A DNA stretch of 64,000 nt, taken from NCBI GenBank assembly GCA_030041355.1, contig JASHNZ010000105.1:62001-126000 (forward strand). The letters run 5' to 3'. This document shows, one piece after another, positions 41,282 through 55,074 of the stretch. Both the position numbers and the translations under genes were made by a program. Under the pieces are notes generated by a model. It saw only the letters and a list, made by a program, of their open reading frames with translations. It made no database searches and was not told the origin of the DNA. Position 1 is the stretch's first letter, and every line of letters begins with the position of its first letter. The DNA comes from Nitrososphaerales archaeon (lineage in GTDB: Archaea; Thermoproteota; Nitrososphaeria; Nitrososphaerales; CADDZS01).

Positions 41282-43174
41282 TTAGCTCTTCGGAAGAATA
41301 CACGCTTCGTTATTGATAGCGTGGAAGAATACCGGAACGTTCTGCGTGTTTGTTGCCCGGTAGCTAGCCAGTAACCAGTCTCCGGGAGCAAAGTTCAATG
41401 TACGCTCTAACAGAGCATCATCAATCGCGAAAGTGTCGCCGACCAGTTGCCTGTCGTAGGGTCTAGGTAAAGTTCCTACAAAATAGCTGTGAATCTGGTG
41501 TAAGGCATTAGTGTTAAGGTGCGCTAGTCTCTGAGTCGAAATCCATCCGTGCAAGTGATACTTTCTCCCATGCCTAAGCAGTCTTTCCACGGCTCTGGAG
41601 CACTCCAACGTGTCTCCCCGGGCATCCTCCTTGGCGGGGGCAAACTCTTGAGCTTCGTCGAATACGAAGAGTATCCTTGGATGAAGATTGAAGCTGCTCC
41701 TGCGCTGTTTGAATACATTGTCGATTATTCGTGTCGCAAGGTCGCGAGCTGCTTCGACTTCCTCGTCAATCACAAATAGCCTCGGTGAGTCGGCGGAGTC
41801 ATCCAGCAGCTCTTTGACAAGCGTTTCTAGCGAGTAGCCCAGCTCTTCTGGCTCTGCAACATCCTGATTGAGCCTTTCTTCGAGGCCCTTTACAAGACCG
41901 AAGACTGTTGCATTCTGTTTTACTCCGGCCTTTGAAAAGTAATCTAGTATTTCCTCCAAAATTGGCAGGACGTCTTTCTCCACAACATCTTCTTCATTTT
42001 TGCCCGAGTCTTTCAAGAAAGTTGTAATTCTATCATTTGCGTAAATCGATGCTTGCTGGTTCGCGTTGTACTTGTCACTAACAGTACTTGCAAAGGAGTC
42101 AAGGAGACCTTCATAGGTTCTGTAGCGAGCGATCGTTTCCATATACTGAGGTCTTACGTACATCGGCTTGCATTTGTCGTCACGGAAAAGTTGCACAACG
42201 AGAGAGACGAGTTCGTTTTCCTTTGAGTCTAGGGCATCTGGCTTTACATGCCTTTTATAAAAGTCCACAGCGTTGTTTTTTAGAACGTGGGCTGCATCTT
42301 CTTTGGTCTCCTTCTTTTGTATACCACGCTTTGAAAATACAATTCTGCTCTCCTGCCCAACGAGTTGGTCCAGAAGATGGATTCCGTACTCTGAGGAGAC
42401 ATCGAAAATCACTACTTTTAGGTCACTCATGGCTTGCAGTGCCTTCCTGACCACCATTGAGGTGAGATAGCTCTTTCCACCTCCAGTGTGACAGAAGACC
42501 CCGACATGAAAATTGATCAGTTGTGTGAAATTAATTGTGAAAGGAACAATATCATCTATTACACCCAGCAGGCTTCCGATGCTGTATGCCTCTAAATCTG
42601 AAGGAGTTGTGTTCTTGGGAGGGATGAAACAGACAAAACGTTTCACAGCTTCCTTGTTCAGGAGTTTAACCTCAGATCCCACAAGGAGAGGGGAATATTT
42701 CCTCTCATATCTTATGTCGTGATTTGAAAAATCAACAATGTAACCGGTCGGAGAAGCAACAAGCTCGATCCATGTGCTCTTCGAATTCTGTTTCCATTCT
42801 TTGTCGATCAGGCCCATGAATTCTCCCCTGAGAGCTCCCGGCTGGCTTGTGCTGAGGGTCAGCATGGAATAGTGCATAGGTATGATGTCTGCTATTTCAA
42901 AAACAGAAAACATGAGTTCAGAGCCTAGGTTCTGCACATTTGGAATTGCCAGAAGCTGACCCGGCGAAAGCATCTGAACTACTCTGGGATCATAAGCAGA
43001 TTCCACCCTCGCAAGTTTGAAAGTCGTGGTCGTCTTCCCATCTGAAGATGGGCGGCTCATCGTTTGGACTTCTCTCAGCTTTGCTTTGAAACTGCCACCG
43101 AGATCTTCGAGCCACGGAATATTCGTCACCGGGCTCCTAGTAGCTAGCTCACTTTGCATGTCGTCCAAAGTCAA
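41282..43174 (-). CDS. herA: HerA-like ATPase
   Basis: A 630-aa HerA/FtsK-superfamily DNA-translocating ATPase. An N-terminal beta-barrel HAS-like domain (residues ~40-180) is followed by Walker A CHTGGGKSYLTS near 228-240, Walker B ILFVFDEAQEFAP near 500, and the arginine-finger-like region SRAVERLLRHGRKYHLHGWISTQRLAHL. HerA with NurA processes DNA ends for recombination. It follows the NurA-like gene by 57 bp on the same strand. Typical archaeal HerA is about 500-600 aa. Confidence 0.9.
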   Translation of the reverse strand: MTLDDMQSELATRSPVTNIPWLEDLGGSFKAKLREVQTMSRPSSDGKTTTTFKLARVESAYDPRVVQMLSPGQLLAIPNVQNLGSELMFSVFEIADIIPMHYSMLTLSTSQPGALRGEFMGLIDKEWKQNSKSTWIELVASPTGYIVDFSNHDIRYERKYSPLLVGSEVKLLNKEAVKRFVCFIPPKNTTPSDLEAYSIGSLLGVIDDIVPFTINFTQLINFHVGVFCHTGGGKSYLTSMVVRKALQAMSDLKVVIFDVSSEYGIHLLDQLVGQESRIVFSKRGIQKKETKEDAAHVLKNNAVDFYKRHVKPDALDSKENELVSLVVQLFRDDKCKPMYVRPQYMETIARYRTYEGLLDSFASTVSDKYNANQQASIYANDRITTFLKDSGKNEEDVVEKDVLPILEEILDYFSKAGVKQNATVFGLVKGLEERLNQDVAEPEELGYSLETLVKELLDDSADSPRLFVIDEEVEAARDLATRIIDNVFKQRRSSFNLHPRILFVFDEAQEFAPAKEDARGDTLECSRAVERLLRHGRKYHLHGWISTQRLAHLNTNALHQIHSYFVGTLPRPYDRQLVGDTFAIDDALLERTLNFAPGDWLLASYRATNTQNVPVFFHAINNEACILPKS

Positions 43175-43231
43175 TTCTTATAATCACAGCTCGAAATATT
43201 TAGTGCAATAAGGGTATGGAATTCAATTCTG

Positions 43232-45097
43232 TCACTTCATCTTGTTCTCGGTCTTTTTCTTTCGAGCAGTCTCAATTCCAGACCTGAGGCTCCTGAATTT
43301 TCCTTGGAAAAGTATTTGCTGATCGAGCCTTGATTTCGTTATTTCGAGGTCTACAGCTGCGACGCAACTTCTACTCGCCTCTTCATAAGCAACTTTGGCT
43401 CTTTTATCGGCCAAGAATAGACCGTAGTTGTGCCCCAAGGCTTCGGGAATTGGCTCCTTTCCCATCGAGTCCAAGATCCCAATCACCAGTTCGGAAATTG
43501 GTGAATCAGATAGGAAATGAAGCGAGGGAATAAACTCTTCCTCAACTTCGTCGAGGTTTTTCAATACAAGCTCACGAACGTAATCGTATTGAGGATAGCA
43601 AGGTCTGTCATAGGAAAATACGTGCGATCTTACATTTGGATTATTGTCGCTGCACCACAATTGAAAATATGCCTTAACAAACATGCGCTCGGCCGCTATG
43701 ACATTCTTATAAGCCCCTCTTACCCAGGCCTCTCCTTTTACCGAAGTCTTCTCGGTGGATAAAGGACTGATCGTCCTAAAACACACGTCATATTCAAAAG
43801 TTCTCCAAGGGCACGCAAGAGAATCACCGTTTACGATACTGTTAGCCTGAAGTAGCATCGTATCGCTCTCGAATCTTTCAATTGCGCCTGTCCCAGAAAA
43901 AAAGCCTGCATCTTTAAGAATAGGTATTACGCCTCGGACTAATTCATTCGCAGCAGAATCCTTTACAATTCCAACAAGCAGAATATTTCTATGCCAACAT
44001 TCGTAAAGAACTGCCGTGATTAGTATTAGTGTGAGATAGTCTATATCTTCGCATGTTAGCCAAGTCTCTACCTTGTTTTTAGGGTCTTTCACTCGTAACG
44101 GATGGCCCTCTCCATTAAATTTGAAAATATGATCAACATAGCACTTCGTTCCTTCCAACAATCTGTCAAAGTAGTGGCTCATGGCCTCGTTGAGCTGAAA
44201 GATTTGCTCCCCATTTTCGGTAAAAGCATCTTTGAAGTTTTTGGACCTTACATCCTCTACCCTTTGCTTTCTCTCCTTCTTTAGGTCAAGCTCAGTCATA
44301 ATTTCCTCAACGGCGAGCGGTCTGCCTTCTCTTAGCAAGAGTGCGATCGTTGCAAATTTGAGAAATTGGCTTCTCGCGGTAGGTATTCTGAGCTGATCAT
44401 TCCTTACTAGCATGCGCCCTAATTCAAGATCGGTTTTGGAGATTACGCCGAACTCTGTTTCAAAACCCATCAACTTGCAGAGGCCCTCCTGAATGTAATC
44501 GCGCAGTTTCCAGCTGATGTGCGCTATGTCAGCTGAGATAGTTCTATCCATCAAAATAATTTTGAGATCGCGGTCACGACAAATCGCTTCGTAAACCACG
44601 GAGTACTCTGATAGCCTCATTAGAGCTCCTGATACTTTGCTAGGGTCAAATTCAGTTCCGCCACCATGTTTTTCGCCAAAGACCTCCGAAGAATATTCCT
44701 CGCTCAAAGGGATCGCCGAGCTTAGAGAAGAGTAATCACTTTGAGAAGATGGAGCTTCTGATATTATTTCATCGCTATGAAATTTCGTGACTCCGCTGTA
44801 GGCAAAAGCCCCGGCATAGAAGACAGTCATATCTAGACGTGGTTCGAAAAATTCAGTTCCGTCTACTGCTAAGTATCGCACTTGATCGGTGCGAAAGAAC
44901 ATCTTGGCTTCTTCAGAACAAAGTCTGACATCGTATCCTTGGCGGAGGTACAGTCGGGAGATTTCGTCATTTCCTTCGAGATTCTTGAGCTTCGCCTTGA
45001 ATGCTGAAAGAAGGTTGCTTGCGGCACTTCTCACCGACTCTACGGCACGATCATTCTCTGAAACAGAATGTCGTTCCTCATCTTGATGTATTGACAA
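43232..45097 (-). CDS. nurA: NurA-like nuclease, enlarged
   Basis: A 621-aa protein. The NurA catalytic pattern appears as YLAVDGTEFFEPR near residue 80 (Asp), LKIILMDRTIS near 180, and LLVGIVKDSAANELVRG near 375. Classical NurA is about 340-450 aa, so this form has an extra ~150 residues, mainly the middle region 240-350. TTG start at 45097, likely leaderless behind an AATAAAAG box near 45121-45129. With HerA it should form a 5'-3' end-resection complex; mre11/rad50 are not adjacent. Confidence 0.78.
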   Translation of the reverse strand: MSIHQDEERHSVSENDRAVESVRSAASNLLSAFKAKLKNLEGNDEISRLYLRQGYDVRLCSEEAKMFFRTDQVRYLAVDGTEFFEPRLDMTVFYAGAFAYSGVTKFHSDEIISEAPSSQSDYSSLSSAIPLSEEYSSEVFGEKHGGGTEFDPSKVSGALMRLSEYSVVYEAICRDRDLKIILMDRTISADIAHISWKLRDYIQEGLCKLMGFETEFGVISKTDLELGRMLVRNDQLRIPTARSQFLKFATIALLLREGRPLAVEEIMTELDLKKERKQRVEDVRSKNFKDAFTENGEQIFQLNEAMSHYFDRLLEGTKCYVDHIFKFNGEGHPLRVKDPKNKVETWLTCEDIDYLTLILITAVLYECWHRNILLVGIVKDSAANELVRGVIPILKDAGFFSGTGAIERFESDTMLLQANSIVNGDSLACPWRTFEYDVCFRTISPLSTEKTSVKGEAWVRGAYKNVIAAERMFVKAYFQLWCSDNNPNVRSHVFSYDRPCYPQYDYVRELVLKNLDEVEEEFIPSLHFLSDSPISELVIGILDSMGKEPIPEALGHNYGLFLADKRAKVAYEEASRSCVAAVDLEITKSRLDQQILFQGKFRSLRSGIETARKKKTENKMK

Positions 45098-45543: not shown

Positions 45544-46635
45544 CTAGGCCGCTGAAACCGAAACTGAGAGAATAGGAGGAAGTACATCTGTTACCTTGCT
45601 CCAGTTCTTTCCTTGATTTCTGCTATAGAATAACTGCCCCGTCGTGGTTCCGACGTAGACTCCGCAAGGATCTTCTTGGTCAGCAGACATTCCTTCTCTG
45701 AGAATGCTGAAGTAAGCAGGGGGCTTTGGAAGTCCCTTATTCAGCTCGGACCAGCGTTTTCCCTCATTATCCGAAGACCAGATGGCAAACCGGCCCTTTG
45801 GAGAAACTCTGTTGTCCCCGCCCTCGAGAGGCGTTGTGTATACGCGTTTCGGATCGTTTGCGTCTACTGCAATAGGAAAGCCAAACTCAGACGGAAGATT
45901 GTTCTGCATATCCGTCCACGTATCCCCATTATCGTCGCTCCTGTACTGCCCACAGTGGTTCTGCTGATAAATCACATTTGGCCTTTCAGGATGACGGACA
46001 ATCTTATGGACGCACTGGCCATAAATTGGATATTTGTTTGGCAAGAAACCCGCTCTCACGTTTTTGTTCTGAAACTTCCAGCTCTGGCCCCCATCACTTG
46101 TAAACAAGGTTCCGACTGCCGAGATTGCGATGTGCTGTTTTGCAGGATCTCTGGGATCAATCAAGATTGAATGTAGGCACAGTCCGCCAAATCCCGGTGA
46201 CCACCTTTCGCGCGTTTCATGATTTAACAACGATTGATTTATGGTCCACGACTCGCCTTTGTCGTTGCTTTTGAAAAGTACCGCTGGATCTACTCCAGCG
46301 TAAACAGTTTCCGGTTCGTCTTCCGTACTCGGTTCAACGTGCCAGATATTCTTGACGGACAAACCCGAACCTTTGGGGAACTTTGGTTGATTCTTGGATC
46401 TCTTCCAAGTATTGCCCAGGTCAAAACTTCGGGCTATAGTCGGGCCCCACTGGAAGCTATTGACACCTGCAAAAACGATTCCGTTTCTGGAATCGTAGGC
46501 AAGGTGAAAAACAGGAGTGCCTTTGAAATGAGGACCCGAGACCTTCCAGGATCGTCGACCATCCTTTGAAGTGAAAAGAAAAGCGCCCTTTGCAGTTCCC
46601 ACCATTAAGAGGACTGATGAAGTCTTTTTCGCCAT
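45544..46635 (-). CDS. BNR-repeat (sialidase-like propeller) protein
   Basis: A 363-aa beta-propeller without signal peptide. The Asp-box-like motif S-x-D-x-G-x-(S/T)-W recurs: SKDGRRSW, SFDLGNTW, SNDKGESW, TSDGGQSW, SDDNGDTW, SSDNEGKRW and SRNQGKNW. This gives seven blades. Sortilin/YCF48-like propellers are typical relatives; none of the sialidase active-site Arg triad can be assigned. The start overlaps the MoaD-like stop by one base (TAATG). I recall the same Ubl-BNR neighbourhood in some bacteria, function unknown. Confidence 0.85.
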   Translation of the reverse strand: MAKKTSSVLLMVGTAKGAFLFTSKDGRRSWKVSGPHFKGTPVFHLAYDSRNGIVFAGVNSFQWGPTIARSFDLGNTWKRSKNQPKFPKGSGLSVKNIWHVEPSTEDEPETVYAGVDPAVLFKSNDKGESWTINQSLLNHETRERWSPGFGGLCLHSILIDPRDPAKQHIAISAVGTLFTSDGGQSWKFQNKNVRAGFLPNKYPIYGQCVHKIVRHPERPNVIYQQNHCGQYRSDDNGDTWTDMQNNLPSEFGFPIAVDANDPKRVYTTPLEGGDNRVSPKGRFAIWSSDNEGKRWSELNKGLPKPPAYFSILREGMSADQEDPCGVYVGTTTGQLFYSRNQGKNWSKVTDVLPPILSVSVSAA

Positions 46636-46931
46636 TATCCGCCAGCTACCGATGGCAGAATGTGCACCTTGTCTCCTTCCTTAAGTTTTGTGTTTTCCTT
46701 TTCCGAGGCTCGGATGTCTTCGCCATTGACGAAGATGTTGACGTACTGTCTAGTAATGTCCTGATCGTCTAGTATCCTTTCCTTGATACCTGGAAATAAT
46801 CTGTTCAGGTATTCGATCAAATCTACTACATTATTTATTGCCGAACCTGGAACCTCAAACTGCCTCTTCTTTCCCGTGAAGTCTTTCAAGTGGCCAGAAA
46901 CATTTACCGTGATCATTTGATTATTCATCAC
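46635..46931 (-). CDS. MoaD/ThiS-like ubiquitin-fold protein
   Basis: A 98-aa beta-grasp protein ending in Gly-Gly (LPSVAGG), as needed for adenylation and thiocarboxylation or protein conjugation (SAMP). ITVNVSGHLKDFTGKKRQFEVPG and VNIFVNGEDIR, EGDKVHILPSVAGG fit MoaD. It could be a sulfur carrier or a SAMP-like modifier. It is immediately followed by the BNR gene rather than by moaE or moeB. Confidence 0.88.
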   Translation of the reverse strand: MMNNQMITVNVSGHLKDFTGKKRQFEVPGSAINNVVDLIEYLNRLFPGIKERILDDQDITRQYVNIFVNGEDIRASEKENTKLKEGDKVHILPSVAGG

Positions 46932-46957
46932 TGAAGCCTCTGCTAAATTTTCGTCTG

Positions 46958-47431
46958 CTAGCTAGTCGAATTTGATTGGACTATTAATCGTCCAAAATCC
47001 ATCAACTGATGAATAGCGCAGAATATAGGGCACGTAATGAGAAAACTACCTGGGTCGTTAGCTACAAATTTGATTATGTAGGAACCACCGGGCTCTAACG
47101 CCACCCCTTGATTAAAGTAATGGGATATTTCGAATCCATGTGCTTCGGAAGAATTCCTGCTAAGAAGAAGGATTACAACGGCTTCTCCTTGCTGAACAGT
47201 TATGACGGGCCACACCTGTGAAACATGGTGCGCACTCCCGTTCATTCCCTCCAAAGGACCGTTGTCGCTCATTATTATTGTGAAGTAAACGGTCTTTGAG
47301 GCCAAACCACTGCTAGTCGATACCGGAGTTGCAATTCCACTTGAGATTATCAGAATGAGGCTCACTATGGCAGCTGCAACAGCAACTGATGCTATGATTA
47401 GTTTTCTAGATTTTGACTGCAAAACTTGCAT
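46958..47431 (-). CDS. Membrane-anchored cupredoxin (CoxB/plastocyanin-like)
   Basis: A 157-aa protein with an N-terminal anchor (ASVAVAAAIVSLILIISSG) and a cupredoxin domain outside the cell. Likely copper ligands are the His of AHGFEI near residue 107 and the cluster CPIFCAIHQLM near 138-148. The spacing C-x3-C-x2-H-x2-M is one residue shorter than CuA (C-x3-C-x3-H-x2-M), while the second Cys fits an amicyanin-like type-1 site (C-x2-H-x2-M). Electron transfer at the outer face of the membrane is the likely role. Confidence 0.8.
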   Translation of the reverse strand: MQVLQSKSRKLIIASVAVAAAIVSLILIISSGIATPVSTSSGLASKTVYFTIIMSDNGPLEGMNGSAHHVSQVWPVITVQQGEAVVILLLSRNSSEAHGFEISHYFNQGVALEPGGSYIIKFVANDPGSFLITCPIFCAIHQLMDFGRLIVQSNSTS

Positions 47432-47440
47432 GGGAAAGAA

Positions 47441-48277
47441 TCAGGTTCCTATTTTCCTTAGGGAGGTCTCGGTTTTTCCGTCAAGGAAGTTTTTTGAAAT
47501 GACAATTTTGGACACTTTCGAAGCAATCCTGATTGTCGAATCCATATTGTATTTCAGGCCGATGGCAGTCGCAATTGGGAAGACGAAATAAGCTACGTAA
47601 AAGATAGCTGGATTGTCTGAAATTAATGCAGTAGTTGGTGCTGCGAGAGCTATGAGGACTGGCAGGGATAAACAACAGGCAGCTCCACCAATTACACCGA
47701 GAGCGGGCATCACTATCAACGAGCGAGAGCGAAACGCAGTCCCGCACGCCTTTCCGATCTCAACAACTTTCATTACATTCGTGAGAACTAATACGCCAAT
47801 CACGAATGACAACGACATGGTGTAAAATGACAAAGCCAAAACATATACCGGCGGAATGAAGAGCTCTATGGTTGGATTAAATGCAAAACCACTGAGAATC
47901 GAAATTGTAGAGACAGGATAGAGCGGAATTGACTCGAAGAGCAAATATGCCTGACTCACGACCGACGGAGTTTTGAAACTGTATGCCACAATCCCCTCGA
48001 GAATCAGTCCATAAAGGACCAGGTGAAGAGACATGTAAGAAACGAAAACACCCAAGCCGCGAGCCGTTTTGATGTATCTTCCAAAGAATGACGCGACATA
48101 TCGAAGAGGAAAGAGAAAAGCAAGACCAACCAGTGAAAACCAAAACAGGGACGATGCAAGGCCTTCATAGAGAGAAAATAGAGATGGTGGACTGACCGAG
48201 TAAGCTAGTCCCGCGAGCGGAAAGCTGATCGCTAGCAAAGCTAGTAGTACACTTGTGGCGAGATAAATTGTTCTCAT
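47441..48277 (-). CDS. Multi-pass membrane protein, unknown
   Basis: A 278-aa protein with seven or eight predicted helices. Near residue 205 it has GVIGGAACCLSLPVLIALAAP, with a vicinal Cys pair at a helix start, reminiscent of MerT-type or copper-handling membrane proteins. Nine bases separate it from the cupredoxin gene, suggesting a joint function, for example copper delivery or electron transfer. No known family. Confidence 0.6.
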   Translation of the reverse strand: MRTIYLATSVLLALLAISFPLAGLAYSVSPPSLFSLYEGLASSLFWFSLVGLAFLFPLRYVASFFGRYIKTARGLGVFVSYMSLHLVLYGLILEGIVAYSFKTPSVVSQAYLLFESIPLYPVSTISILSGFAFNPTIELFIPPVYVLALSFYTMSLSFVIGVLVLTNVMKVVEIGKACGTAFRSRSLIVMPALGVIGGAACCLSLPVLIALAAPTTALISDNPAIFYVAYFVFPIATAIGLKYNMDSTIRIASKVSKIVISKNFLDGKTETSLRKIGT

Positions 48278-48397
48278 ATTTTGATCATTCCGGTTTCAAA
48301 ACGCTCTTTTTGAAATAGCGAATTACTCTTTTTCCACTCTGTTCAATCCACACAGAGTAGCTCTCCAAAAAGGATTTCACACTAATATAAGGCGGAA

Positions 48398-50533
48398 TTA
48401 TGTTTTAGCATTAGCTTCCCTACCTGCGAACTGTTCTGCTTGAACCGGACTCCCAATGACGGGCAGGTGTGGTTGGCCGTGCTTATTACTACCTTTTATT
48501 CCCAGTTTCTCCCTCAGCCAGCCCCGAACATCATAGAAGTATTCATTTTCGTAAGGACATGCGGACACACAATCCCCCACGCCTATGCATTTGTGGCTTC
48601 TGAATTGTCCACTCTTGATGAAATTTCCTGGAAGATCAGTCAATCCCACAGGGCATGCCTTAGCACAGTCTTTGGTTTCGCAATTGACGCACTGCGTAGG
48701 ATCCTTGACCTTTAGCCGGAACAATCCGATTCTGCTAACGAATTGGTTGAAGAGTCCAATGTGGCAATAGCCTGTTGTTACGCAACCATAAGTGCCGACG
48801 AAGGGAATTGAAATGAAAATAATGTACCAAAGGAAATTGAAATAAAAGATGTACAGAAAAAACACGATATCCGTTCCAAAAAACGTGAAACTAATGATGC
48901 CAACGGAATTAAGATAGGAGGCAATGGCAGCGATTATGATTGACACTATAGCTATAGAAGATACGATCTTGTACAAGTTGGACATGCGGCTGGTCAGAAG
49001 TTTCCTACCAAGTTTGGAAGTTCGGTTGAACGCACTCATAGAGTCGGGGAACGTGCCTTGATACATCAATGCGGCCGTGCAGAATACAGAGCATGTTTGT
49101 CTTGCTCCAAACAAAAAGGAAAGTACGCCGGTGATCAAATACGTTCCCAAGATCGCTCCTAGGAAAACAGGCGCAACTGCGCCTGCGGTGCCGACACCCA
49201 TGCTCCAGCCCAAGAAAGGGATACTCGCGATGCTTGATGAAAAAACAAATGACGGGAGAAAAATGGAATATATGAAATAAGCTGCAATGACCAAAACGAG
49301 TCTGATCTTAGTCTCAAGCTCTCTCGTTATCATAATCTTGAACACTACTAGGGCACCCATCTCTACCCCCATCATAATCAAAAACCAGGCGGAACCTGTC
49401 ACGGATCCAAAATAGATAATGAAATCATAAAACACTGCGCCGATCTGAGTTACTATAGAGCCCGAAATAGGAGCCAAACTTATGCCAGTTATGAATCCCG
49501 TGCCATAGTATTGCATGTCAATGAGTGCGCCCATGAAATATTCGGCGACGAAAGTCATCGTCATGAACCCGAAAACCCACCAAGGATCTGTGAGCCAAGA
49601 CCTCGATTTCGATGACTCGATACTTCCTTTTGAAAGAATTAAGTTGAAGTAAAGGATCATTTCACCAACTATTGAGAGCACAAACACGAGTGCGCTACCC
49701 TGAATTATCCATACAAATATGCCTGCCATCATCATCGCATAAAGCGCGAGGAGAGCGAGAAAGTATCCTCTAATCGCGCTTGTGACGATTTTGTTTTTGA
49801 ACAGATATTCGTACATATAGATAAGAAGGCCGATCATGGCAACGCTGCCAAGGTAGATGCTATAGGTAACCCAATTTGCACTATTTAGGGCAGTCGGCGC
49901 GAAGAACATCACTATTGATTGCCCGATGACAATCAGAAAAAAGCTCTTAGGGAGATTCTTCCTCAGCATGTAAACTGAAAAGATCATTTCAAGAACCATA
50001 GTGAATATGAACCAATCAGATCCTACGACCCTGCTGAACGTTGATAATGCAGCTTGTGCTGATGATCCAGAAGCTGTTGTAAAAGATCCTGAGGCTAAAA
50101 CAAAAGCCCAGCCCATCAAGAATTCATTTAGCAAAATGAGAGAGATTACAGCGGCACGAGTTCCAACTCTTAGGGTCCCTGCGTCATGGGTGGTCGCATC
50201 GGCAACTACGTCGGACGCGGCACCTTGAGAAGGTGCAACAGTGATTTTCCCTATTTCCTCATCTAACGAGCCTTCGGTCCAGCGGTGGAGAATAAAGATG
50301 GCTCCGCCAGTCATCAAGACGGCATTGAATGCTACAGCTTCAACTATGCTGACTACACTTGGAGAAAGGAAGTAGATCACTGCACCGCCGAACATGCTGG
50401 CCATTGTGATGAGAAGATACAGGACGACGTCATTGTCAGCTGGAGTTTTGGCCTGGAGCGCTCGCTTGACTAGCAATGAAGTAACAAAGGCCATCGGGAT
50501 AGCGATTATCCAAAGCCACAACGGTTGCGACAA
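48398..50533 (-). CDS. Large membrane polyferredoxin (NapH/NosR-like end)
   Basis: A 711-aa protein with roughly fourteen helices and a C-terminal domain with two [4Fe-4S] motifs: CVNCETKDCAKACP and CIGVGDCVSACPY (about 625-665). Two CxxxC-type motifs between helices (TCSVFCTAALMYQG and GCVTTGYCHIG) recall the NapH/RdxA/NosR inner motifs but without the usual CP. The long N-terminal membrane part (about residues 1-440) is unlike these proteins. Likely quinol-linked or trans-membrane electron transfer. TTG start; a hairpin holds the GAGGAG ribosome site in its loop just upstream. Confidence 0.72.
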   Translation of the reverse strand: MSQPLWLWIIAIPMAFVTSLLVKRALQAKTPADNDVVLYLLITMASMFGGAVIYFLSPSVVSIVEAVAFNAVLMTGGAIFILHRWTEGSLDEEIGKITVAPSQGAASDVVADATTHDAGTLRVGTRAAVISLILLNEFLMGWAFVLASGSFTTASGSSAQAALSTFSRVVGSDWFIFTMVLEMIFSVYMLRKNLPKSFFLIVIGQSIVMFFAPTALNSANWVTYSIYLGSVAMIGLLIYMYEYLFKNKIVTSAIRGYFLALLALYAMMMAGIFVWIIQGSALVFVLSIVGEMILYFNLILSKGSIESSKSRSWLTDPWWVFGFMTMTFVAEYFMGALIDMQYYGTGFITGISLAPISGSIVTQIGAVFYDFIIYFGSVTGSAWFLIMMGVEMGALVVFKIMITRELETKIRLVLVIAAYFIYSIFLPSFVFSSSIASIPFLGWSMGVGTAGAVAPVFLGAILGTYLITGVLSFLFGARQTCSVFCTAALMYQGTFPDSMSAFNRTSKLGRKLLTSRMSNLYKIVSSIAIVSIIIAAIASYLNSVGIISFTFFGTDIVFFLYIFYFNFLWYIIFISIPFVGTYGCVTTGYCHIGLFNQFVSRIGLFRLKVKDPTQCVNCETKDCAKACPVGLTDLPGNFIKSGQFRSHKCIGVGDCVSACPYENEYFYDVRGWLREKLGIKGSNKHGQPHLPVIGSPVQAEQFAGREANAKT

Positions 50534-53202: not shown

Positions 53203-55074
53203 TTGAAAAACCGGTTCGCTATCTTCCTTGCAATTGTAATGTTATTGATTTTGATTTCAGGCTCTTCGCAAGAGCAATCTACGCTTCATTCAACGGCATA
53301 TTCATCAATTTCCCGCACGATTGCGAATGATCGTCAAACTACAGACAAATCTTCGCAACTACTCGCTCATATGTTCTTTCCAAGGGAGCCAAGATTGGAT
53401 GATGTTGAGCCCATTTCGGGATTCGCTCCGGTGGGCATTACCTCCTATGGTTCAAATGGAACAGTAGTGCAGACAAACAGTGTGAGAGGAATCACCAATA
53501 TTACGGGAATTGGAGTAGGTTATTTTTCGACAATAATTGTAAACAGCATAAACTTCACAAATGATTATGTAAACGGCACTCTATATTCAGGGTATAATAG
53601 CGCGTCTCTTCAAGAAAACGCGGTGCTTTGGCTTGGGAATCTTGGCACTTATTGGACCCAAAACGTAATTTTGCTCACACAAATTAGCCAAACATTGTAC
53701 GTACTCGAGCCGGTTGATAATATTTGGAATTTCAGCTCGAGCTCTGCGAATATGAATCAGAACGCAATCTCAGGCAACGGGAGCGTTCAATGCATCATAG
53801 TATCCGGTGAGGGCACATCGTGCGCATATATCACTGCAGCTTCTAATTTTACAGTGACCGCCCCTTTTACTATTAACCTCACCATGTCGATTAACTCTGC
53901 CGGAAATGGTGCAGCAGGCGTTGGATTCCAGTATCAAATTCAAGATTCCAGCGGGGACAATTTTACTGGCCAATATGATAATGCTATTTTGTATCCTGGC
54001 AATCCAAGAGTTCCATCGTATTTTCAAATCGGCGGTGATAGTCCTGTGGTGGATGATCTGGGCGGGGGGACTAGCTTCATTTTGCCCAGCGATCTTGAAC
54101 TAGTCTTTGGCGGACCGGGTAGTGGCTCAAGTGTCTTCGTCAACTCTGTGTATGGATCTCAAGAGTTATTGTATTCGAATGGAACTGCCTATCTTCCAGT
54201 CCTTGACGCGTTTTCTGGAGGCTCGGATACGGCAGAGCAAGCGGCTGGGATCCAAATAGCAGCGGACCTCACTAGTCCTTTCTTGCCCACGGCGACACTT
54301 AGCAGTGGCGTGGTCACTACGCAAAAACTTTGGCCGCTACCGCCTGCTCTAACACTAACTGGAAGCAACGAATTTAGTAACGGGTCCCTCGTTCTTCAAG
54401 GCGTACTTGTTTACTCGCCAGGTACTTCTTCGAGTGTCGCGGCCGCCTCCAATCTTCCAGTCCTAGAATCCTTAAGCGGGGCGTCTCGGACCACAGGAGC
54501 TGGCGGTGGGTTCAGTTTTCTCTTCGAGCCCACCCATACAGGCGTGTATCGGGATAGCATCTCTTACTCTGGGTCTGTAGCATTTGATAAGGAAATTTTC
54601 CAATTTAATATTACGGTGTCTTCTATCAGCCTCTCTGGTACTGCCGGAGGCGCAGTTGTTGGCGACTTTAACTCCAGCCAAACAGTGATCCAGAATAAAA
54701 CTAGCCTTCTGGTACCCGTTCTCCAAGGCTCATCCTTGGTGGTGACATTTCAGAACGAAACCAATATTGGAAATCAAAAGGAGCAATTCCTCGGCTTTGG
54801 ATCCTCTCAGCGGAGCGTGGTTTTGTATGGAAATTTGCCCCAAACCCTTACCGCAAACTTCGAAGAACAAACCGCTGTCCTTAGTGTTGGATCAGTCTTG
54901 CTCTATGGGATCATCACAGCTTTAGCGCTCATAGTGGGCTTGGTGCTCGGTTACGTTCTTCGAGGAAGAAAATTGCAAGCCGCAACAACTCCGACTCCAA
55001 CTCCCACAGAAACTCCCCCCTCGCCTCCTTCTGATCAGCCTGTTCCGAACTTTGGAAATATGTCTGCGAAATAG
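53203..55074 (+). CDS. Thermopsin-family acid protease (A5), secreted
   Basis: A 623-aa exported protein. Signal peptide (FAIFLAIVMLLILISGSS), then the thermopsin start PVGITSYG, and long beta-rich segments with many N-glycosylation sequons. GVGFQYQIQD and the GTYWTQNVILLT region match the family's YWxQNVxL pattern. A C-terminal helix (SVLLYGIITALALIVGLVLGYVL) anchors it, followed by a Thr/Pro-rich tail. Catalytic Asp residues in A5 are poorly defined. A TTTAAAT box at 53141-53147 precedes the TTG start by 56 nt. Points to an acidic habitat. Confidence 0.78.
   Translation: MKNRFAIFLAIVMLLILISGSSQEQSTLHSTAYSSISRTIANDRQTTDKSSQLLAHMFFPREPRLDDVEPISGFAPVGITSYGSNGTVVQTNSVRGITNITGIGVGYFSTIIVNSINFTNDYVNGTLYSGYNSASLQENAVLWLGNLGTYWTQNVILLTQISQTLYVLEPVDNIWNFSSSSANMNQNAISGNGSVQCIIVSGEGTSCAYITAASNFTVTAPFTINLTMSINSAGNGAAGVGFQYQIQDSSGDNFTGQYDNAILYPGNPRVPSYFQIGGDSPVVDDLGGGTSFILPSDLELVFGGPGSGSSVFVNSVYGSQELLYSNGTAYLPVLDAFSGGSDTAEQAAGIQIAADLTSPFLPTATLSSGVVTTQKLWPLPPALTLTGSNEFSNGSLVLQGVLVYSPGTSSSVAAASNLPVLESLSGASRTTGAGGGFSFLFEPTHTGVYRDSISYSGSVAFDKEIFQFNITVSSISLSGTAGGAVVGDFNSSQTVIQNKTSLLVPVLQGSSLVVTFQNETNIGNQKEQFLGFGSSQRSVVLYGNLPQTLTANFEEQTAVLSVGSVLLYGIITALALIVGLVLGYVLRGRKLQAATTPTPTPTETPPSPPSDQPVPNFGNMSAK

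Follow-up and report, generated by a model that had tools for sequence, protein, structure and literature searches.

Do five genes that follow one another in a single direction belong to one system, or do they merely share a neighborhood? This question is raised by a stretch of 64,000 nucleotides (the window) from a soil-dwelling Nitrososphaerales archaeon (assembly GCA_030041355.1, contig JASHNZ010000105.1, positions 62,001 to 126,000). Between positions 45544 and 50533, its minus strand carries open reading frames (ORFs) for a membrane polyferredoxin-like protein (polyFd), a second membrane protein (Mem), a cupredoxin (Cup), a ubiquitin-like beta-grasp protein (Ubl) and a BNR beta-propeller (BNR). 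An earlier note, made from the DNA letters, had listed these co-directional genes, proposed that the first three form an electron path to an external copper protein and considered that Ubl and BNR might either belong to it or be independent. All five ORFs were found where it had placed them, and its domain calls hold. The intergenic gaps, in the order polyFd-Mem-Cup-Ubl-BNR, are about 120, 9, 26 and -1 bases, the last being a one-base overlap in the TAATG shared by the Ubl stop and the BNR start. Because these gaps are short and the direction is the same, a single transcript for all five genes is plausible; chance ORFs are excluded, since all five are conserved in many genomes. The five genes are nevertheless two unrelated modules, polyFd-Mem(-Cup) and Ubl-BNR, sharing one direction of transcription.

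With somewhat less than even confidence, polyFd-Mem-Cup is read here as a module accessory to the heme-copper oxidases (HCOs) of archaea, most likely one of copper reduction and loading comparable to that of CcoG. The gene neighborhoods of polyFd carry much of this argument. They comprise 45 distinct full-length loci from Nitrososphaerales, Sulfolobaceae, another family of the phylum of the window, and Thermoplasmata; the Sulfolobaceae and similar family labels rest on named Metallosphaera records and on gene content. In 34 of these loci, Mem, HCO subunit I or DUF1404 is found within 6 kb of polyFd, the individual partners being HCO subunit I (18 loci), Mem (18) and Cup (9); overlapping genes enter as negative distances and do not alter these numbers. 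In most of the Sulfolobaceae genomes examined, HCO subunit I comes after polyFd in the same orientation, with gaps of about 80-170 bp, and four loci (L248, L253, L254 and L255) depart from this order. In two loci of the other family (L256 and L257), polyFd comes last in the arrangement HCO subunit I-Rieske-CytB-polyFd, in which the gene ends overlap, touch or nearly touch; COX2 is encoded close by. In Thermoplasmata (L044 and L045) the ends of polyFd and Mem likewise touch or overlap, with DUF1404 next in line, and two further loci (L061 and L062) place polyFd near a thioredoxin-like ORF, Cup, COX2 and HCO subunit I. Co-occurrence points the same way: 14 of the 15 genomes with Mem also carry polyFd (Fisher p 8e-14 across 151 genomes of the order, not corrected for phylogeny). 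Within the order polyFd co-occurs strongly, genome by genome, with Mem and with close relatives of Cup, the positive genomes being concentrated in two families.

The architecture of polyFd is that of a membrane half joined to an iron-sulfur half. Domain searches returned two Fer4 motifs and a weak match to NapH, at 31.7 bits for a curated cut-off of 234, and no family match for the N-terminal half. Two cysteine pairs (C481/C485 and C584/C590) lie in the NapH-like membrane part and precede two C-terminal ferredoxin-type motifs (C615-C618-C623-C627 and C649-C655-C659), all 11 cysteines being invariant in 47 homologues. The term polyferredoxin used in the earlier note is generous for two motifs and two pairs: the second motif, C-x5-C-x3-CP, holds three cysteines instead of the four expected for each cluster and may thus bind a [3Fe-4S] cluster or one with an incomplete set of ligands. 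The sequence at this position is CIGCGDC in one homologue (L042). The charges of the loops put the iron-sulfur half on the cytoplasmic side. Like CcoG/RdxA and NapH/NosR, polyFd has two cysteine pairs in loops at the membrane and, beyond them, two ferredoxin-type motifs that probably face the cytoplasm; the location of its gene near an oxidase recalls what the literature gives for CcoG. Unlike these proteins, polyFd has some 390 additional N-terminal residues forming a Met/Glu-rich membrane domain, its C-x3-C and C-x5-C pairs are devoid of a CP motif and its second cluster has three cysteines; no FMN (flavin mononucleotide) domain such as that of NosR was detected in it.

The membrane half (residues 1-475) is the more unusual part. 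It contains an internal duplication, residues 122-312 aligning with residues 313-450 (hhalign E 1.6e-6), in which the motif E137-x2-M140 / M179-x2-E182-M183 recurs as E331-x2-M334 / M388-x2-E391-M392. Of its 24 methionines, 14 are strictly invariant in 33 homologues (p 1e-11) and 17 reach 95% conservation or more in the set of 47 (p 5e-15), along with E137, E182, E331 and E391; both p values assume independent positions and ignore relatedness. No invariant histidine was found in this half among the 33 homologues. Short polyFd paralogues of Sulfolobaceae (461-490 residues), encoded away from HCO genes, keep all 11 cysteines and have lost the Met/Glu set, which is thus a property of the HCO-linked long form. 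Several variants of the family may also be recorded. Genome G000 (contig C85, L066 9473-11752) contains a second copy of polyFd, adjacent to a second Mem; as aligned in the search, this copy is interrupted by an in-frame TAG and is possibly a decaying paralogue. Stand-alone homologues of the N-terminal membrane domain, of about 290-390 residues, adjoin full-length polyFd in four loci (L055, L063, L064 and L065). A small multi-cysteine membrane gene, VKOR-like by eye, abuts the short Sulfolobaceae paralogue in two others (L262 7786-8160 and L263 7081-7455).

Mem was described in the earlier note as a vicinal-cysteine membrane protein, and the C201-C202 pair is indeed invariant, together with H85, Y89, G90 and E94; H85 and E94 sit in a helix of the predicted model. 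Neither Pfam nor NCBIfam holds a family for Mem or for a Sulfolobaceae homologue, and a profile search of the PDB sequences (E<=5) gave no match. Sulfolobaceae genomes contain two to four homologues each, in Sox-type oxidase loci, with Rieske, SoxA/SoxB-like and arsenite-oxidase-like genes or a SoxFGH-like set as neighbors. A copper-translocating ATPase, confirmed as such, adjoins Mem in one locus (L160), and an ORF resembling such an ATPase lies three genes from Mem in another (L163). Six Sulfolobaceae loci (L159-L163 and L166) share a cluster of arsenite-oxidase-like, Rieske, SoxA/SoxB-like and DUF1404 genes with one or two Mem genes.

Cup matches Cupredoxin_1, below the cut-off, and the CuA domain of NosZ/COX2; the closest sequences are the NosZ/COX2 CuA domains and nitrosocyanin. 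The earlier description of a CuA/type-1-like cupredoxin is borne out by a real and conserved ligand set (H98, C134, C138, H141 and M144), in which His, two Cys, His and Met follow one another in the same order as in the CuA sites of NosZ and COX subunit II. Cup differs from these in being a stand-alone anchored domain and in its loop, C-x3-C-x2-H-x2-M, one residue short of the CuA pattern H...C-x3-C-x3-H-x2-M. The shorter loop is present in 19 of the 21 rows scanned (one gene being counted twice), the pattern leaving two rows unresolved, whereas the COX2 proteins examined at these loci have, with few exceptions, C-x3-C-x3-H-x2-M; in one the loop is longer. The spacing around the second cysteine, C-x2-H-x2-M, is that of amicyanin, a type-1 copper protein, from which Cup departs by an additional invariant cysteine four residues upstream; Cup itself gave no amicyanin match. 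Judging from its sequence, Cup may bind two coppers, bind one or act as a chaperone. A plasmid search with Cup returned no match. A membrane gene beside Cup in three loci (L060-L062) was provisionally taken for a ZIP transporter, an identity that was dropped when the L061 copy showed no Pfam match.

The oxidase that such a module could serve is present in the genome of the window (2.74 Mb, 88% complete; nearest named relatives, the Nitrososphaerales metagenome-assembled genomes (MAGs) of the JOPF set), which encodes COX1, a copper ATPase and a CoxB whose CuA motif is normal. The HCO, CoxB and an amicyanin-like cupredoxin (L070) are found together on contig C73. The earlier note had proposed a check for a nitrous-oxide- or copper-oxidase gene elsewhere: an HCO with CuA is present; no full-length NosZ was found in this 88% complete genome, its CuA-domain matches reaching 32.2 and 23.1 bits for a cut-off of 625, and NosZ was rejected as a terminal partner.

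On this observed basis of gene identity, conserved residues and conserved HCO linkage, from which metal, direction and substrate are inferred, the following route can be proposed. The cytoplasmic iron-sulfur half of polyFd, given its NapH/CcoG-like layout, would take electrons from ferredoxin or quinol and pass them through the cysteine pairs at the membrane to Cu(II), which would thereby be reduced to Cu(I). Judging from its residue conservation, the Met/Glu-lined membrane half would hold or relay Cu(I). Mem, with its Cys-Cys pair and its His and Glu in helices, and the external Cup would help to pass Cu(I), electrons or both to the copper sites of the oxidase. CcoG, a ferredoxin-like protein of the membrane, is a cupric reductase on which the efficient assembly of the cbb3 oxidase depends (PMC8475189). 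The polyFd module would be the functional archaeal counterpart of CcoG, and on the strength of the genomic linkage to HCOs polyFd may likewise reduce Cu(II) and support oxidase assembly. Copper reduction and loading is preferred because of the HCO linkage, the Met/Glu set, the cysteine pair of Mem, the copper ATPase neighbor and the CcoG precedent. In broader terms, polyFd, Mem and Cup are neighbors of the oxygen-consuming respiratory enzyme in many acid-loving archaea and probably provide it with electrons or reduced copper. With more reserve, polyFd is proposed as a part of the aerobic respiration of acid-adapted archaea that has gone unrecognised. Its Met/Glu-lined copper site within the membrane would supply HCOs with Cu(I) or electrons, in company with Mem, DUF1404 and a cupredoxin of hybrid CuA/amicyanin-type loop. 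Copper loading of archaeal HCOs and electron routing to them are poorly known, and two unnamed families, polyFd and Mem, together with the already listed DUF1404, recur in the oxidase operons of Sulfolobaceae, Nitrososphaerales and Thermoplasmata. The copper site of the Cup family, for its part, is a naturally occurring intermediate between CuA and type 1. Literature searches confined to an open-access library turned up no description of the polyFd family.

Several observations weigh against this interpretation. Eleven of the 45 polyFd loci have no HCO, Mem or DUF1404 gene within 6 kb, some of them being on short contigs, as MAG contigs are at several loci. The HCO of the window's own genome lies on another contig, so that its linkage is established by homology only. 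Four genomes of family f1 (G042, G070, G008 and G023) possess an HCO and gave no polyFd match, which indicates that polyFd is dispensable for some HCOs. The intramembrane Met and Glu residues could instead handle quinone or protons. Structural comparison brought no support: Foldseek found no PDB structure at E below 0.001 for the AlphaFold model of either polyFd or Mem, the models being of mediocre quality (predicted local distance difference test, pLDDT, of 67 and 73, respectively). A profile search of PDB sequences with polyFd (E<=1e-5) also gave no match.

The principal competitor, close to the view of the earlier note and possible rather than probable, is respiratory electron transfer: polyFd would be a NapH/NosR-like quinol or ferredoxin dehydrogenase delivering electrons across the membrane to Cup, or straight to an oxidase/bc-type complex, with Mem as a membrane subunit. 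NapH is the best named match of polyFd, the affinities of Cup are with CuA domains and nitrosocyanin, and the HCO subunit I-Rieske-CytB-polyFd operons resemble a respiratory complex. A high-potential [3Fe-4S] cluster, which suits quinol, could moreover occupy the three-cysteine motif. Against it, Cup is present in only 9 of the 45 loci, and HCO loci already own a CuA site, an amicyanin-like cupredoxin even standing beside the oxidase in the window's genome. The membrane half of polyFd also offers no conserved histidine as a ligand for heme b, and Sox loci hold Mem without polyFd. The three genes do form a redox/copper module, and the HCO-operon context fits copper reduction and loading at least as well as an electron path to an external copper protein. 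An improbable alternative places the module in a chain for iron oxidation (fox-type) or another form of lithotrophy instead of oxygen reductase biogenesis. The fox clusters reported for iron-oxidising Sulfolobales do contain an HCO and an iron-sulfur protein (PMC5461723), and polyFd occurs in acidophiles including Metallosphaera; it is nevertheless found beside HCO across Sulfolobaceae genomes and in soil Nitrososphaerales, a distribution that exceeds that of the fox clusters so reported (PMC5461723).

The second module has a different history. Ubl, described in the earlier note as a GG-ended beta-grasp protein, does end in SVAGG and matches ThiS/MoaD_arch, scoring 61.1 bits with TIGR01687 (cut-off 49.5) and 56.4 bits with the SAMP1 equivalog NF041918, below its cut-off of 60. 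BNR is a BNR/Sortilin match and an ordinary member of its family, aligning with PDB 3B7F over its whole length (residues 4-359, E 3.7e-73) with no difference found. The BNR gene was looked for in 250 genomes of the order. In the set of loci that span 5 kb or more, it is present in 28, of which 19 also contain Ubl and the window alone also contains polyFd; no polyFd locus outside the window has BNR. Ubl is the immediate neighbor of BNR in most complete loci, its usual ends being PSVAGG or PAVSGG. The pair is also carried by bacterial plasmids; in Mitsuaria, as in many archaea, a MoaD/ThiS gene adjoins a sialidase-annotated gene. Judging by their sequences, MoeB/ThiF-like (L185, L194 and L195), MoaA-like and MoaB-like ORFs flank the pair in several genomes. 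Ubl-BNR is thus an independent, widespread conserved pair whose adjacency to the first module is mostly accidental, and Ubl is probably a cytoplasmic sulfur carrier or modifier with a propeller partner; two surveys of Ubl proteins that were searched do not mention such a partner. In six loci (L088, L089, L090, L094, L104 and L106), the Ubl beside BNR has a short tail past GG or no terminal GG; if a free GG is a condition for conjugation, such ends would first have to be processed. In a Thaumarchaeota MAG (L040 1614-3460), at 4.5 kb from polyFd, a JAB-like ORF is followed by a 470-residue ORF that begins with a Ubl domain and is possibly a Ubl-E1 fusion.

Two genomes of the same genus show how the modules may have met. 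In G057, polyFd-Mem-Cup lies on contig C23 and the two copies of BNR are on C16 and C116; G042 has Ubl-BNR with no polyFd or Mem match. In both (L180 and L179), as in the window, NurA-like and HerA-like ORFs come after Ubl-BNR. Because this order is common to the three, polyFd-Mem-Cup appears as the later neighbor, a block that probably joined an older Ubl-BNR-NurA/HerA arrangement. That all five genes form one system, with Ubl as modifier and the propeller as partner of the redox module, is very improbable and was rejected on neighborhood evidence: against the tight co-directional spacing in the window and, in G042, a diverged Cup (44% identical) encoded on the opposite strand at a distance of about 1.9 kb stand the 28 BNR loci, the separate contigs of G057, the bacteria that carry Ubl-BNR without the other three genes and a BNR start that reads as having no signal peptide beside a membrane-anchored Cup. 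The earlier note had regarded the consistent separation of the two groups in other genomes as fatal to their unity; separation is almost without exception what the BNR loci display, and of its two options for the pair, independence is the one retained.

Table 1. The five genes of the two modules, in window coordinates.
Gene	Coordinates	Strand	Product
polyFd	48398..50533	(-)	711 aa (amino acids); membrane half 1-475 and NapH/CcoG-like Fe-S half
Mem	47441..48277	(-)	278 aa; polytopic membrane protein from an unnamed family that occurs in archaeal HCO loci
Cup	46958..47431	(-)	157 aa membrane-anchored cupredoxin
Ubl	46635..46931	(-)	98 aa MoaD/SAMP-like beta-grasp protein, C-terminal SVAGG; separate module
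BNR beta-propeller	45544..46635	(-)	363 aa; PDB 3B7F homologue; separate module

The flanks of the cluster contain further recognizable genes. The HerA-like (630 residues) and NurA-like (621 residues) genes occupy positions 41282-45097; of the two, PADLOC recognized the HerA-like gene only, through HerA-type matches and a single Mads-8 match. On the other side, a gene for a thermopsin-family protease (Pfam PF05317, E 3.5e-39) is located at positions 53203-55074.

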